Shown here: positions 58,088 to 62,900 of the stretch, one piece after another
How the letters are laid out: each line of letters starts with the position of its first letter
How positions within the stretch are numbered: position 1 is the stretch's first letter
NCBI GenBank assembly: GCA_016125035.1
Contig: WGMN01000001.1
Span: 322,427-386,426 of the forward strand
Length of the DNA: 64,000 bases
Direction of reading: 5' to 3'
Source of the DNA: Pseudomonadota bacterium
GTDB lineage: Bacteria > Pseudomonadota > Alphaproteobacteria > UBA2136 > UBA6156
The notes under the pieces: generated by a model
Told to the model about the DNA's origin: nothing
Databases searched by the model: none
Seen by the model: only the letters and a program-made list of their open reading frames with translations
Program-made: the position numbers and the translations under genes

Positions 58088-58235
58088 GGCATTGGCTCCT
58101 TTGGAGAGCCTCCCAGTCTTGGGGGGATTTTACGGCGGCCCGTGTGGCAAGGCAAGGGGGGTTAATGGTTGGTAGTGGGTCAGTTTGGAAATTAGGCTGG
58201 GTGACAGGGATGTTGGGTTTGGGCATACTCCCCCC

Positions 58236-58466
58236 ATGCCAAAAGGCCCAAAAGGACAAAAGAGACCCGCAGATGTGATTAGCGCCGCCATCATGGTGGC
58301 ACGTATTGCTACGGGTGAGGTTGAAGACACCACGCAAGAAAGTAAGGCATACGCCCGTAAGGGGGGCCTAAAGGGGGGCAAGGCGCGTGCCAAGGCCTTG
58401 ACTGCGACACAGCGCAAGGAAATTGCCAAAAAGGCCGCTGCTAGTAGATGGAAAAAGTCTAACTGA
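58236..58466 (+). CDS. Small basic Lys/Ala-rich protein (76 aa), transposon passenger
   Basis: MPKGPKGQKRPADVISAAIMVARIATGEVEDTT...ARKGGLKGGKARAKALTATQRKEIAKKAAASRWKKSN. Confidence 0.7.
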   Translation: MPKGPKGQKRPADVISAAIMVARIATGEVEDTTQESKAYARKGGLKGGKARAKALTATQRKEIAKKAAASRWKKSN

Positions 58467-58751
58467 GATACTACCCACTAGACATGGGCTAGACGCTACC
58501 CATAATATTTAGTACACCACAACACCAACCCCGCCTTGCGGCGGGGTGATGATGGTCCGACCATGGTCGCTTCCTAACCTGCTCAGGGAATAGGGAAGCG
58601 GCCTTTCTGGTTTCTGCCCCTCGCGCGGGTCGGTGGTTTGCGCACGGGGGCCGTCTTTCTTCTTGCCATGGCCATAGCTCCTTTCTGTCTCCAACATATA
58701 CAGTTCAAGAATTGGCGTCAAGGCCAAGTCTCCACAAAAGAGAATTAAAGT

Positions 58752-58803
58752 TTGACAGCCAAGTCTGAACCGTGGTATTTAAGTGACTTAGACATAAAGG
58801 AGG
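58752..58803 (+). promoter_or_regulatory. Sigma70-like promoter and RBS for passenger gene 58811
   Basis: TTGACA (58752-58757), 18-bp spacer, TATTTA (58776-58781); aaaggagg before ATG. Confidence 0.65.
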
Positions 58804-58810
58804 CTTCAAC

Positions 58811-59569
58811 ATGGCTGACGAAACCAAAAAGCAAACCCGGCCCGGTAGCGGTCAGCGGTTCCCGTTCATCTCTCTCCCCAAGGCCCTAGACCGGGCGCGG
58901 GAACTTTATAAGGTCGCAAACGTCCATGAGGTCGCTCTTGCGGCAGCTGTAACGAGTTGGGGTTATGGAGATAAGAGTAGCGGTGGCCTTCAAACCATTG
59001 CTGCGCTTAAGTCCTTTGGGCTTGCTGAAGATTCTGGTAGCGGCGGGGCGCGTAAGATAAAACTAACGGACTCGGCGCTTAAGATTATCCGCGACCCCCG
59101 CGATATTTCCCCAGAGCGTGACGCCCTTATTACGCAGGCGGCCTTGCTTCCCCAACTCCACCGGGAGGTTATAGAAAAGTATAATGGTATGCCCCCTTCG
59201 GATATGGCACTGACCACATACTTGCGGCTTGAAAAAGGTTTGTCGGATGATGCCTCTTTGGACTTTATCAAAGAGTTTACCTCCACTATGTCCATTGCAA
59301 AACTAGAAGATTCTGTTACTATTCAAGACATGGAAACCGCCTCAACTCCGACATACAACCCACCTATTATTCAACCAGTGGCGGGCGGATCTATGCCTTT
59401 TGTGTCTCCTGCCATGGCGATAGACGGTAAAACAGACATCAAGTTTATGGTGACTGGCAATCGCATCCATGTCTCAGCAGTGATGGATAAAGCAGGTGTG
59501 GCACGTCTAAAGAAGATACTAGATGCGAACGAACCCCTATTAGAAGATGAGGCTGAGGGGGGCAAATAG
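58811..59569 (+). CDS. Uncharacterised passenger protein (252 aa)
   Basis: Strong promoter/RBS; ...FPFISLPKALDRARELYKVANVHEVALAAAVTSWGYGDKSSGGLQTIAALKSFGLAEDSG, winged-helix-like N-terminus. Confidence 0.8.
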   Translation: MADETKKQTRPGSGQRFPFISLPKALDRARELYKVANVHEVALAAAVTSWGYGDKSSGGLQTIAALKSFGLAEDSGSGGARKIKLTDSALKIIRDPRDISPERDALITQAALLPQLHREVIEKYNGMPPSDMALTTYLRLEKGLSDDASLDFIKEFTSTMSIAKLEDSVTIQDMETASTPTYNPPIIQPVAGGSMPFVSPAMAIDGKTDIKFMVTGNRIHVSAVMDKAGVARLKKILDANEPLLEDEAEGGK

Positions 59570-59617
59570 CCCCCTTTACTTTGATATGTTTAGTAAAAAA
59601 CAAAATGAACTTTATGC

Positions 59618-59646
59618 TTGACTATCAAGTCATAAGGTCATATTAA
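59618..59646 (+). promoter_or_regulatory. Promoter of transposase gene with operator-like palindrome over -35
   Basis: TTGACT-17 bp-TATTAA; palindrome CTTGA-cta-TCAAG overlaps -35. Confidence 0.55.
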
Positions 59647-59653
59647 TATAGAT

Positions 59654-60484
59654 ATGAACAAGCTGAGCACCCCGGAACGCGCCAAAATCCTAGGGATGAT
59701 GGTAGAGGGTATGGCCATTCGGGCCATTTCCCGCCTGACTGGGGCCAGCAAGAACACCATTGCAAAGCTGTTAGTGGACGCAGGGAACGCCTGCTCAGAC
59801 TATCAGGATAAGACTTTCCGCAACCTACCCTGCAAGCGCGTGCAGGTGGATGAGATTTGGAGTTTTGTTTACGCCAAGCAAAAGAACGTGCCGCAGGGCA
59901 TGAAGGGTATGCCGGGTGTAGGTGATGTGTGGACGTGGACGGCCCTTTGCGCAGATACCAAGCTGGTGCCGTCATGGTATGTGGGCAACCGGGGCGAGGA
60001 TGCAGCTTGCACGTTTGTTGCTGACCTCGCTGGTCGCTTGGCTAACCGCATCCAGCTTACCAGCGATGGGCACCGGGCTTACTTAGAGGCCGTTGCTGGC
60101 GCCTTCCAAAACAACATTGACTACGCGATGCTGGTGAAGCTGTATGGGAATGAAGGTGGAATGACACCAGAACGCAAGTATAGCCCCGCTGAATGCACTG
60201 GCGCCAAAAAGCTGGCCATCACTGGCAACCCTGACAAAAAACACGTTTCCACCAGCTACGTTGAGCGTCAAAACCTCACCATGCGTATGTCGATGCGGCG
60301 GTTCACTCGCCTCACCAACGGCTTTAGCAAGAAAATGGAGAATCACTGCCATGCGCTCTCCATCTACTTTATGTATTACAACTTCGGGCGGGTGCACCAA
60401 ACCTTGCGCGTAACGCCCGCAATGGAGGCTGGTGTGGCTGACCACATATGGTCTCGGGAGGAAATTGTAGCTTTGATTAACTAA
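59654..60484 (+). CDS. IS1-family-like DDE transposase
   Basis: N-terminal HTH (MVEGMAIRAISRLTGASKNTIAKLLVDAG), VQVDEIWSFVYAKQKNV, LTSDGHRAYLEAV, TSYVERQNLTMRMSMRRFTRLTNGFSKK. Confidence 0.88.
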   Translation: MNKLSTPERAKILGMMVEGMAIRAISRLTGASKNTIAKLLVDAGNACSDYQDKTFRNLPCKRVQVDEIWSFVYAKQKNVPQGMKGMPGVGDVWTWTALCADTKLVPSWYVGNRGEDAACTFVADLAGRLANRIQLTSDGHRAYLEAVAGAFQNNIDYAMLVKLYGNEGGMTPERKYSPAECTGAKKLAITGNPDKKHVSTSYVERQNLTMRMSMRRFTRLTNGFSKKMENHCHALSIYFMYYNFGRVHQTLRVTPAMEAGVADHIWSREEIVALIN

Positions 60485-60506
60485 AACCTGTTTTTCCGTG
60501 TATAAT
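60478..60506 (+). promoter_or_regulatory. Putative promoter of antitoxin/toxin pair
   Basis: TTAACT-17 bp-TATAAT (60501-60506). Confidence 0.5.
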
Positions 60507-60530
60507 GTGGCCAACAGGAAACAACCAAAA

Positions 60531-60965
60531 ATGGCCAATGTCTTTGATGTAGCAAAGTATATTTTACTGACCCAAGGGGTCGCCATAACCACGTGGAAGC
60601 TTCAAAAACTTGTGTATTACTCCCAAGCATGGAGTTTAGTTTGGGATGATGCTCCTCTCTTTAATGAGGAAATTCAGGCTTGGGCAAATGGCCCCGTTTG
60701 CCCTGACCTTTATAACGCGCACCGTGGTGAATTCTCTATCTCTCACGAAGGTATAGATGGCGACCCTGATAAGCTCGAAAAGAACCAAATTGACACTATC
60801 AACAAGGTTATTGAGCATTATTCTAAGCTTTCTGCCCACCAGCTTTCTGAACTTACCCACTCTGAGGCTCCATGGATTAACGCCCGTGAGGGATTGGAAC
60901 CGAACGAACGCGGAAACCAAGTTATTGCGCTAGATGCAATGGCTGAGTTCTATGGCGGACTCTAA
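60531..60965 (+). CDS. Panacea-domain (SocA/PanA-like) antitoxin candidate
   Basis: NVFDVAKYILLTQGVAITTWKLQKLVYYSQAWSLVWDDAPLFNEEIQAWANGPVCPDLYNAHRGEF, matching the Panacea consensus. Confidence 0.88.
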   Translation: MANVFDVAKYILLTQGVAITTWKLQKLVYYSQAWSLVWDDAPLFNEEIQAWANGPVCPDLYNAHRGEFSISHEGIDGDPDKLEKNQIDTINKVIEHYSKLSAHQLSELTHSEAPWINAREGLEPNERGNQVIALDAMAEFYGGL

Positions 60966-61485
60966 AGAGTTTCCTGAGTGGAAATGGGAAGGTTACAAGA
61001 AGCCGCCTGAAAAGGTCATACCGCTTCATGAAGTACCTACTAGCCAAAAGATAGCAAAACTTTTCCCTCAGCCAGCTCGCAAAGAACCAAAGCACTTCAC
61101 ACGCACCGCAACAGAGGATTTCCTATGGAACGCGGAATATGCGGACAGGGAAGGTGCTTGGACATGGGGTGAAGAAAGAAATTGGACAGAGGTCTTGTGG
61201 GATGAGGTGCTTCACCCATTTCTAAAGGATTGCGGAACTAAAACTTGGGGAACGTTAGAGCGCGAAACGGCAGGAGGCAGCCAACGCCATAAATCATACG
61301 AACTGAGTGTTATTTGCAAAGAGGCTCAGCGCCGACTCCGTGATATTTCCTTAGATGACCTCCCCCATATTTTTCGCCTAAGACTTAACAACAAACAGCG
61401 GTTTTACGGATATTGTGTTTCTGGTTGTTGGTACGCTCTATGGTGGGATGCAGAACACATGATTTGCCCTTCACCTCGTAAGTAG
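60952..61485 (+). CDS. Partner of Panacea antitoxin: candidate toxin, 177 aa
   Basis: Overlaps antitoxin by 14 nt; C-terminal DLPHIFRLRLNNKQRFYGYCVSGCWYALWWDAEHMICP. Confidence 0.75.
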   Translation: MADSKEFPEWKWEGYKKPPEKVIPLHEVPTSQKIAKLFPQPARKEPKHFTRTATEDFLWNAEYADREGAWTWGEERNWTEVLWDEVLHPFLKDCGTKTWGTLERETAGGSQRHKSYELSVICKEAQRRLRDISLDDLPHIFRLRLNNKQRFYGYCVSGCWYALWWDAEHMICPSPRK

Positions 61486-61508
61486 TTTTTTTCAAACTGA
61501 CCCACTAC

Positions 61509-62900
61509 CTAATGGTTGGCGGGGGTGGCGCCTTGGGATGTGATGAGAGAGCTGATTTCGTTCAGCTTTTCTGTGAGAATGGTGGGGGAGGCGGCTTCTA
61601 CGTTGAGGCGTAGCAGGGGCTCATTACTGCTGGTGCGGATGTTGGCGCGCCAGGTGGGGAAGGAGACCTCCAGGCCGTCGAAGCGGGAGAAGGTGGCGCC
61701 CAGCGGCTGGTAGTGGCTTTGCAGGGTGGTGAGGATTTGGGATGCCGGGGTGGTGGTGCGGAAGTTTATCTCATCGGATGCCGGGGCGCGGGAGGCGTGT
61801 TCGGCCACCAGTTGGGAGAGGGTTTTGTTGGTGCGGCCCATAAGCTCTAACATCAGGAGGGCGGGGAGCATGCCGGTGTCGCAGTAGAAGAAATCGCGGA
61901 AGTAGAAGTGGCCGCTGATCTCCCCGCCGAAGATGGCGTGGTGTTGGCGCATGAGGGGTTTGATGTAGCCGTGGCCGACCTTGGAGATGATGGGGGTGCC
62001 GCCGTTCTCGGTGATGGTTTGCACGGTGTCGCGGTAGAGGCGGGGATCATGCACGACGGTGGATTTTTCTTTGGCGAGGAGGGCCTCTGCCAGGAGGGCG
62101 CAGATGTAATAGTTGTTAATGAACTCGCCGCTCTCATCGTAGAAAAAGCAGCGGTCGAAGTCGCCGTCCCAGGCGATGCCGAGGGCCGCGCCGCTTTGCT
62201 TTACGGCGCGGGCAGTTTCTTCCCGGTTGGTGGGCAGGAGTGGGTTGGGAAGGCCGTTGGGGAAGGTGCCGTCCGGCATAAAATGCAGTTTGGTGGCGGT
62301 GAGTTGGGGCAGGTGGGCGAGCAGGGCTTCCACTGTGGGGCCCGCTGCGCCGTTGCCGGCGTTCAGCACGATGTTGAGGGGTTGGATGGAGGTGGTGTCG
62401 GCGATGGAGGACAGGGTGCTTAAGTAGGCTTGGCGGTGGTTGGCGGTGGCGGGTTGGGGGAAGGTGGCGGGGGTGGGTTCGCCTGCTGCCAGTGCACTGC
62501 GGGTGAAGGCTTCCAGTGCGGGGAGGTCGGCATCATGGCTGAAGGGTTGGCCACCGGCGCGGATGAGCTTGAAGCCGTTGTACTCCGCCGGGTTGTGCGA
62601 GGCGGTGACCATGATGCCGAGGCCATAACCCTGGCTGCCGGCGGCATGGTAGACCTCTTCCGTGCCGCACAGGCCCAGTGAGCTGGGCTTGGCGCCTTCT
62701 GCCGCCAGGCCGGCGGCGGCGGCGGCGAGGAGTTCCGGCGAGGTGAGGCGGCTATCCATACCCAAAACCGCCGTTTTGGCGCCGGTGATGCGCGCCAGGC
62801 CGCGGCCGATATGGTAGGCCATGGCGGGGTTGAGCTCATGCGGCATTTTGCCGCGGATGTCATAAGCTTTGAAAGCGGGGAGTTTGGTGGGAGCAGCCAT
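61509..62900 (-). CDS. Phosphomannomutase/phosphoglucomutase
   Basis: FKAYDIRGKMPHELN, GIMVTASHNPAEYNGFKLI (catalytic Ser), GIAWDGDFDRCFFYDE, FGGEISGHFYFRD. Confidence 0.95.
   Translation of the reverse strand: MAAPTKLPAFKAYDIRGKMPHELNPAMAYHIGRGLARITGAKTAVLGMDSRLTSPELLAAAAAGLAAEGAKPSSLGLCGTEEVYHAAGSQGYGLGIMVTASHNPAEYNGFKLIRAGGQPFSHDADLPALEAFTRSALAAGEPTPATFPQPATANHRQAYLSTLSSIADTTSIQPLNIVLNAGNGAAGPTVEALLAHLPQLTATKLHFMPDGTFPNGLPNPLLPTNREETARAVKQSGAALGIAWDGDFDRCFFYDESGEFINNYYICALLAEALLAKEKSTVVHDPRLYRDTVQTITENGGTPIISKVGHGYIKPLMRQHHAIFGGEISGHFYFRDFFYCDTGMLPALLMLELMGRTNKTLSQLVAEHASRAPASDEINFRTTTPASQILTTLQSHYQPLGATFSRFDGLEVSFPTWRANIRTSSNEPLLRLNVEAASPTILTEKLNEISSLITSQGATPANH

Follow-up and report, generated by a model that had tools for sequence, protein, structure and literature searches.

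The locus described here raises the question of what is encoded beside a Panacea antitoxin gene, how the product might act and what brought the two genes to their present site. PanAT pairs, in which a Panacea (DUF4065) antitoxin is combined with one of many toxins, are already known (Kurata 2022, PMC8832971; Ernits 2023, PMC10440598). In the window, as we call the whole 64,000-nucleotide stretch of alphaproteobacterial DNA that was analyzed, the gene for PanA (positions 60531-60965, forward strand) encodes a stand-alone Panacea antitoxin of 144 residues, which matches PF13274 (SocA_Panacea) with an E value of 1.8e-21 and a score of 77.6 bits, above the curated cut-off of 25.7. No other Panacea gene occurs in the whole 1.45-Mb genome. 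Comparison with SocA of the type VI system SocAB (NF047745) gave 55.8 bits, below the equivalog cut-off of 190, indicating that PanA has a Panacea domain but is not SocA itself. SocB came into consideration as the toxin type because no Panacea family is better named than SocA, and this candidate was dropped on the same score.

The second gene, for PanT (60952-61485, forward strand), encodes a predicted toxin of 177 residues (protein P0001). The open reading frame, the C-terminal sequence quoted for it in the original prediction and the start 14 nucleotides inside the PanA frame (overlap 60952-60965) were all found as described. An alternative in-frame ATG at 60934 would add six residues (MQWLSS) and extend the overlap to 32 nucleotides, and either codon is a candidate start. 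The frame is not a chance one, since homologs with the same motif hold the same Panacea-adjacent position in 52 other loci. The G+C content is 46% for PanA and 48% for PanT, compared with 61% for the window. A promoter-like site is located upstream of the pair (60477-60506, forward strand), where it overlaps the stop codon of a transposase gene. Its TTAACT and TATAAT hexamers, with 10 of 12 consensus bases, are those originally reported, but they are separated by 18 nucleotides rather than 17. Since such sites are no commoner in the region than in shuffled sequence (3 found versus 2.2 expected), a promoter common to both genes at the end of the transposase gene is plausible from the layout only.

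Searches with the PanT protein alone matched one unannotated fecal phage contig, one Rhizobium plasmid and a genome from within the genus; a scan with this single query gave no match among the genome contigs of a many-phyla collection. Alignments used as queries revealed further genomes of the same phylum and, in the case of an alignment of Magnetococcales relatives, 32 loci in that collection. A divergent member led to temperate phages of Salmonella, E. coli and Pseudomonas and to more plasmids. Altogether, about 15 phyla contributed relatives of PanT, as did several phages, in a sample whose loci were all reached through related seeds. Neighboring Panacea genes were called with a Panacea profile built from the loci found, duplicates were removed, and loci cut by a contig end were left out (L044 is a further, truncated locus). 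A Panacea gene adjoined the PanT-like gene in all 53 distinct loci with a visible flank, 52 of them besides the one studied here. It lay directly upstream on the same strand in 52 of the 53, the remaining locus, L028, being convergent. The distance between the two genes, from start to stop, was mostly between −35 and +22 nucleotides. Protein distances within the PanA and PanT sets were strongly correlated (Mantel r = 0.80 for 50 loci; none of 5,000 permutations reached this value), indicating that the pair is inherited and transferred as a unit. An adjacent, usually overlapping pair conserved across species, as expected of a type II toxin-antitoxin system, is thus what the 53 loci and their correlated distances display.

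PanT had been put forward as a possible toxin paired with a Panacea antitoxin, and the universal adjacency, the co-divergence and the antitoxin-first gene order all favor this proposal. Homologs consistently lacking a Panacea neighbor had been named as the contrary outcome; we looked for them, and the 53 loci all have one. The locus resembles PanAT systems in the Panacea gene lying first, beside and overlapping a small toxin-like gene, and in its mobile distribution; antitoxin-first order is typical (PMC8832971). We therefore regard PanT, on these comparative grounds, as very probably the toxin of a Panacea pair. Its family is little studied and, among the loci with a visible flank, always stands beside a Panacea gene. 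It is not recognizable among the experimentally characterized PanT proteins in the main texts of PMC8832971 and PMC10440598, and it may correspond to one of the clusters predicted there, 88 in number and for the most part without annotation.

The domain had been described as unrecognized, which holds for Pfam, where no family covers the PanT protein, but not for other collections or for the predicted fold (see below). PHROG 8366 was matched by all 15 family members compared (best E value, 1.3e-40); P0001 itself matched it with an E value of 0.0078 over residues 139 to 173 alone (35 residues). NCBIfam MAG6450 (NF046006) was matched by 14 of the 15 (best, 1.1e-8) and not by P0001, and two relatives checked singly scored 24.4 and 22.8 bits, below its cut-off of 40. 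By these profile matches of PanT relatives, the family can be equated with PHROG 8366 and is close to MAG6450, both of which are families without an assigned function. The PADLOC profile for NsnC, a component of the Menshen anti-phage system, was also matched by 14 of 15 members (best, 8.6e-9). Since only the final 100 positions of the profile are matched, NsnC would consist of another N-terminal part followed by a PanT-type domain, and thus appears to end in the C-terminal domain of the PanT family. NsnC differs in this extra N-terminal part and in its company, which in Menshen includes DUF262 and OLD-nuclease components (PMC10952713), not Panacea.

The NsnC profile led to two other groups of proteins. 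Weak matches at L056 (1480-2031) and L061 (1480-2098) are remote relatives of the C-terminal domain with no Panacea gene beside them; they are not exceptions to the adjacency described above, because neither matches the family profile at an E value of ≤0.01. The L061 gene has a small DUF2080-like gene directly upstream (weak match; E value of 0.013, below cut-off), which suggests a related toxin paired with another antitoxin. Three further proteins (L049, L050 and L051) match the N-terminal part of NsnC, are encoded immediately after an OLD-like ATPase gene and end in HGK...RIHF...VYIGPKIT instead of WWDxxH; they are possibly AAA-paired effectors.

The part of PanT matched by both PHROG 8366 and NsnC is a C-terminal three-strand core (residues 139 to 173; 61366-61470, forward strand). 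It contains the WWDxxH motif highlighted in the original prediction, whose W164, D166 and H169 proved invariant or nearly so in the core family of 37 loci (W164, 37/37; D166, 36/37; H169, 37/37), as did R150 upstream of the motif (37/37). The divergent branch (13 loci) kept W164 (12/13) and D166 (13/13), whereas R150 and H169 were present in only 4 and 3 of its members, respectively. At the position where most relatives carry a second histidine, P0001 has K114. Conservation suggests that R150 (61399-61401), D166 (61447-61449) and H169 (61456-61458), all on the forward strand, are candidate residues of an RNase active site. Since R150 and H169 are mostly absent from the divergent branch, this assignment may not hold family-wide.

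An AlphaFold2 model of P0001, built with 29 related sequences, had a mean pLDDT of 79.5 overall and mostly 81 to 95 in the blocks covering residues 51 to 177. Its elements are two paired helices, one additional helix and a sheet of three strands. A second member (L043) was modeled with a pLDDT of 87.7. We took as RelE-like a helical pair packed on an antiparallel sheet and searched 350,542 PDB chains with Foldseek. The best 29 matches of the P0001 model were all toxins of the YoeB, HigB, RelE, YafQ or ParE type (best E value, 0.13; probability, 0.54), and 20 of the best 22 matches of the L043 model belonged to the RelE/ParE superfamily (best E value, 0.28). E values ranged from 0.13 to about 1, none being significant singly, and several alignments covered approximately 30 residues. 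The structure prediction proposed earlier for the C-terminal part thus gave a well-modeled domain at residues 51 to 177, whereas its RelE/ParE matches are individually non-significant. Because one small superfamily fills the match lists of two members, a RelE-like fold is nonetheless likely for the modeled domain.

Folds of the RelE/ParE type are already known among toxins of toxin-antitoxin systems. PanT resembles YoeB, HigB, YafQ and RelE in being matched to them in the fold searches and in having a histidine after the predicted C-terminal sheet. No significant sequence-profile similarity to the superfamily was found by profile-profile comparison or in Pfam: PanT compared with sets of YoeB and HigB gave probabilities of 1 to 2%, near background, versus 95% for YoeB compared with HigB. 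In these weak profile alignments R150 nevertheless stands in register with the arginine conserved in YoeB and in HigB. Sequence searches of the PDB with the protein and two profiles gave chance matches only, and no solved structure was matched; Rv1546 aligned with PanT over 30 residues at an E value of 0.19. The differences are also clear. Members of the PanT family have about 135 to 200 residues, compared with about 85 to 100 for RelE/ParE toxins, and PanT, unlike those toxins, has an N-terminal basic tail and inserts one more helix between its paired helices and its sheet. The WWDxxH signature is likewise a feature of PanT and not of RelE/ParE proteins.

RelE/ParE folds also include gyrase inhibitors. 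PanT could accordingly be a genuine Panacea-controlled toxin of this fold that cuts no RNA and instead binds and poisons DNA gyrase, in the manner of ParE, or some other protein. We consider this improbable, although ParE2 entries occur among the fold matches, ParE-like PanT proteins have been reported (PMC8832971) and the divergent branch is still paired with Panacea despite mostly lacking R150 and H169. YoeB and HigB rank above ParE in both fold searches, and the near invariance of R150, D166 and H169 in 37 core loci from many phyla is typical of an active site. About equally improbable is a toxin-antitoxin module whose toxin has an activity unrelated to RelE, the fold likeness then being a chance effect of a small three-strand sheet. 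The non-significant E values, the many alignments that cover the sheet alone and the failure to match any solved structure by sequence all agree with such an effect, which would not readily account for the near-exclusive presence of one superfamily among the best of 350,542 chains for two separate members. RNA cleavage is thus the activity that we favor for PanT, by a modest margin over its being something other than an RNase.

Phage defense or regulation could also be the task of the pair: Panacea would respond to a trigger, and its partner would be an effector whose simple overexpression causes no toxicity. Panacea has been proposed as a sensor (PMC10440598), the C-terminal domain is common to PanT and NsnC of Menshen, and temperate phages carry a Panacea gene with a gene of the PanT family. 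P22-like phages (L104, L105 and L107) hold such a pair, with a divergent PanT, between the injection-protein gene and mnt/arc/ant, a placement consistent with, though no proof of, prophage-borne defense. (The Panacea frame of phiv205-1, L104, is split.) Two overlapping genes, antitoxin first, with no further conserved partners form an ordinary toxin-antitoxin layout, however, and direct neutralization of a toxin by a stand-alone Panacea protein has been demonstrated in another system (PMC10440598). This makes the sensor-effector arrangement the least probable of the three alternatives to a Panacea-neutralized, RNA-cutting PanT.

How the pair reached its site became clear from a search for repeats, which revealed a complete IS1-type element of 3,339 bp (58171-61509) that contains both PanA and PanT and that had gone unmentioned in the original prediction. 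The left terminal inverted repeat, GGTAGTGGGTCAGTTTGGAA (58171-58190/91, forward strand), matches the right one (61489/90-61509, reverse strand) at 19 of 20 nucleotides. An 8-bp target-site duplication, TAATGGTT, flanks the element, its left copy (58163-58170) being an exact match to the right copy (61510-61517), which lies directly outside the terminal repeat. The 16-nucleotide core of the repeats occurs twice in the genome, at the two element ends; its absence elsewhere, together with the perfect flanking repeat, indicates that the 3,339-bp element is complete. The insertion falls at the stop codon of a phosphomannomutase gene (61509-62900) and changes TAA to TAG, the protein being otherwise intact. 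The genes on either side, encoding a Bax-inhibitor-like protein and the phosphomannomutase, are 3,742 bp apart here and 271 to 870 bp apart in four related genomes. A tRNA gene was sought as an integration site and not found.

Besides the pair, the element encodes three products on the forward strand. The single-ORF transposase of the IS1 family (276 residues; 59654-60484) matches PF03400 with an E value of 2.2e-5, above cut-off, and NF033558 with an E value of 4e-17, below cut-off, the latter pointing to a divergent IS1 subgroup. A frame for 252 residues (58811-59569) has no Pfam or NCBIfam family. A small basic element-associated ORF (58236-58466; about 76 residues from ATG) is 59% identical over 66 residues (E value of 2e-19) to an ORF annotated as histone H1 in a sister element of Mesorhizobium loti. 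The features of a transporter IS are thereby all present, namely, an IS1-type transposase, inverted repeats, a short duplication and passenger genes between the ends. PanA and PanT are cargo of this IS1-type element.

Sister elements share ends of the form GGTAGTG(GG/TC)TCAGTTTGAAA and have transposases about 57 to 65% identical to the one in the window. The element of the same genus (L129:3605-5886; 2,282 bp; duplication, AACTTTTT) ends right after the transposase gene and lacks the Panacea pair, indicating that the pair fills the stretch between the transposase gene and the right end. Plasmids of Mesorhizobium loti (L132:1796-5165; 3,370 bp), Acidiphilium (L133:2267-4900; 2,634 bp) and Hoeflea (L134:1555-5778; 4,224 bp) carry elements that have ends of this type and are flanked by 8-bp duplications; in Methylocapsa (L135:1776-4900; 3,125 bp) the ends are present and there is no duplication. 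The cargo of the Mesorhizobium, Methylocapsa and Hoeflea elements comprises a gene for an HTH and M78-protease protein with a small partner, the M78 match being below cut-off in Methylocapsa. The Hoeflea element has a second overlapping pair (60 and 201 residues), whose 201-residue protein has no Pfam match and looks like an ADP-ribosyltransferase. The Acidiphilium element carries an SDH-type protease; RES/Xre genes near it were rejected as cargo, as nearly all of that stretch lies beyond the right end (4900). M78/ImmA-type proteins act as antitoxins in RosmerTA systems (PMC10440598), and by analogy the HTH-M78 pairs of the sister elements may be toxin-antitoxin-like; the second Hoeflea pair may be so as well.

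Taken together, the best explanation of the locus is a type II toxin-antitoxin system, carried by an IS1-type element, in which a RelE-like, RNA-cutting PanT is neutralized by its Panacea partner; we assign this reading as a whole a probability of about 0.6. PanA would be made first from a shared transcript, and the 14-nucleotide overlap would couple translation so that PanT is made beside PanA. PanA would then bind PanT directly and keep it inactive. Upon loss or alteration of PanA, free PanT would act and growth would stop: the domain spanning about residues 55 to 177, with its fold like those of RelE, YoeB and HigB, would most likely cut RNA and thereby halt translation, R150, D166 and H169 being the best candidates for its active site. 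A sizable share of predicted PanT proteins were non-toxic in E. coli in published tests (PMC8832971), which counts against this mechanism. The 3.3-kb element would have inserted next to the phosphomannomutase gene with the pair as its cargo, and the pair may serve the element as addiction or defense cargo, with a possible role in phage defense or in retention of the element. The shared C-terminal domain of NsnC and the carriage of such pairs by temperate phages are in keeping with this reading.

Insertion sequences with passenger genes are known (PMC9330008), and toxin-antitoxin pairs, often of the RelE/ParE type, are passengers of Tn3-family transposons (Lima-Mendez 2020, PMC7157771). The pair described here is likewise carried by a transposable element, but the vehicle is of the IS1 type, with a single transposase, a length of 2.3 to 4.2 kb and no recognized resolvase, and the antitoxin is Panacea. 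As far as tested, the fold and the residue-level hypothesis for the PanT family, its link to NsnC and the occurrence of a Panacea pair as IS1-type cargo are new. More tentatively, toxin-antitoxin pairs with Panacea and the tail of NsnC might draw on one and the same RelE-like effector domain, and the IS1-type elements might form a shuttle family with a common backbone and exchangeable toxin-antitoxin or defense cargo.

For a family without a curated function, these results offer a testable mechanism, that of a RelE-like RNase with three named residues. The family reaches about 15 phyla as well as P22-like and Pseudomonas phages, and through NsnC it is linked to an anti-phage system already described. 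Carriage of a Panacea pair by an IS1-type element parallels that of toxin-antitoxin pairs by Tn3 transposons, and it supplies one definite way in which Panacea systems could spread and exchange partners as often as has been reported.
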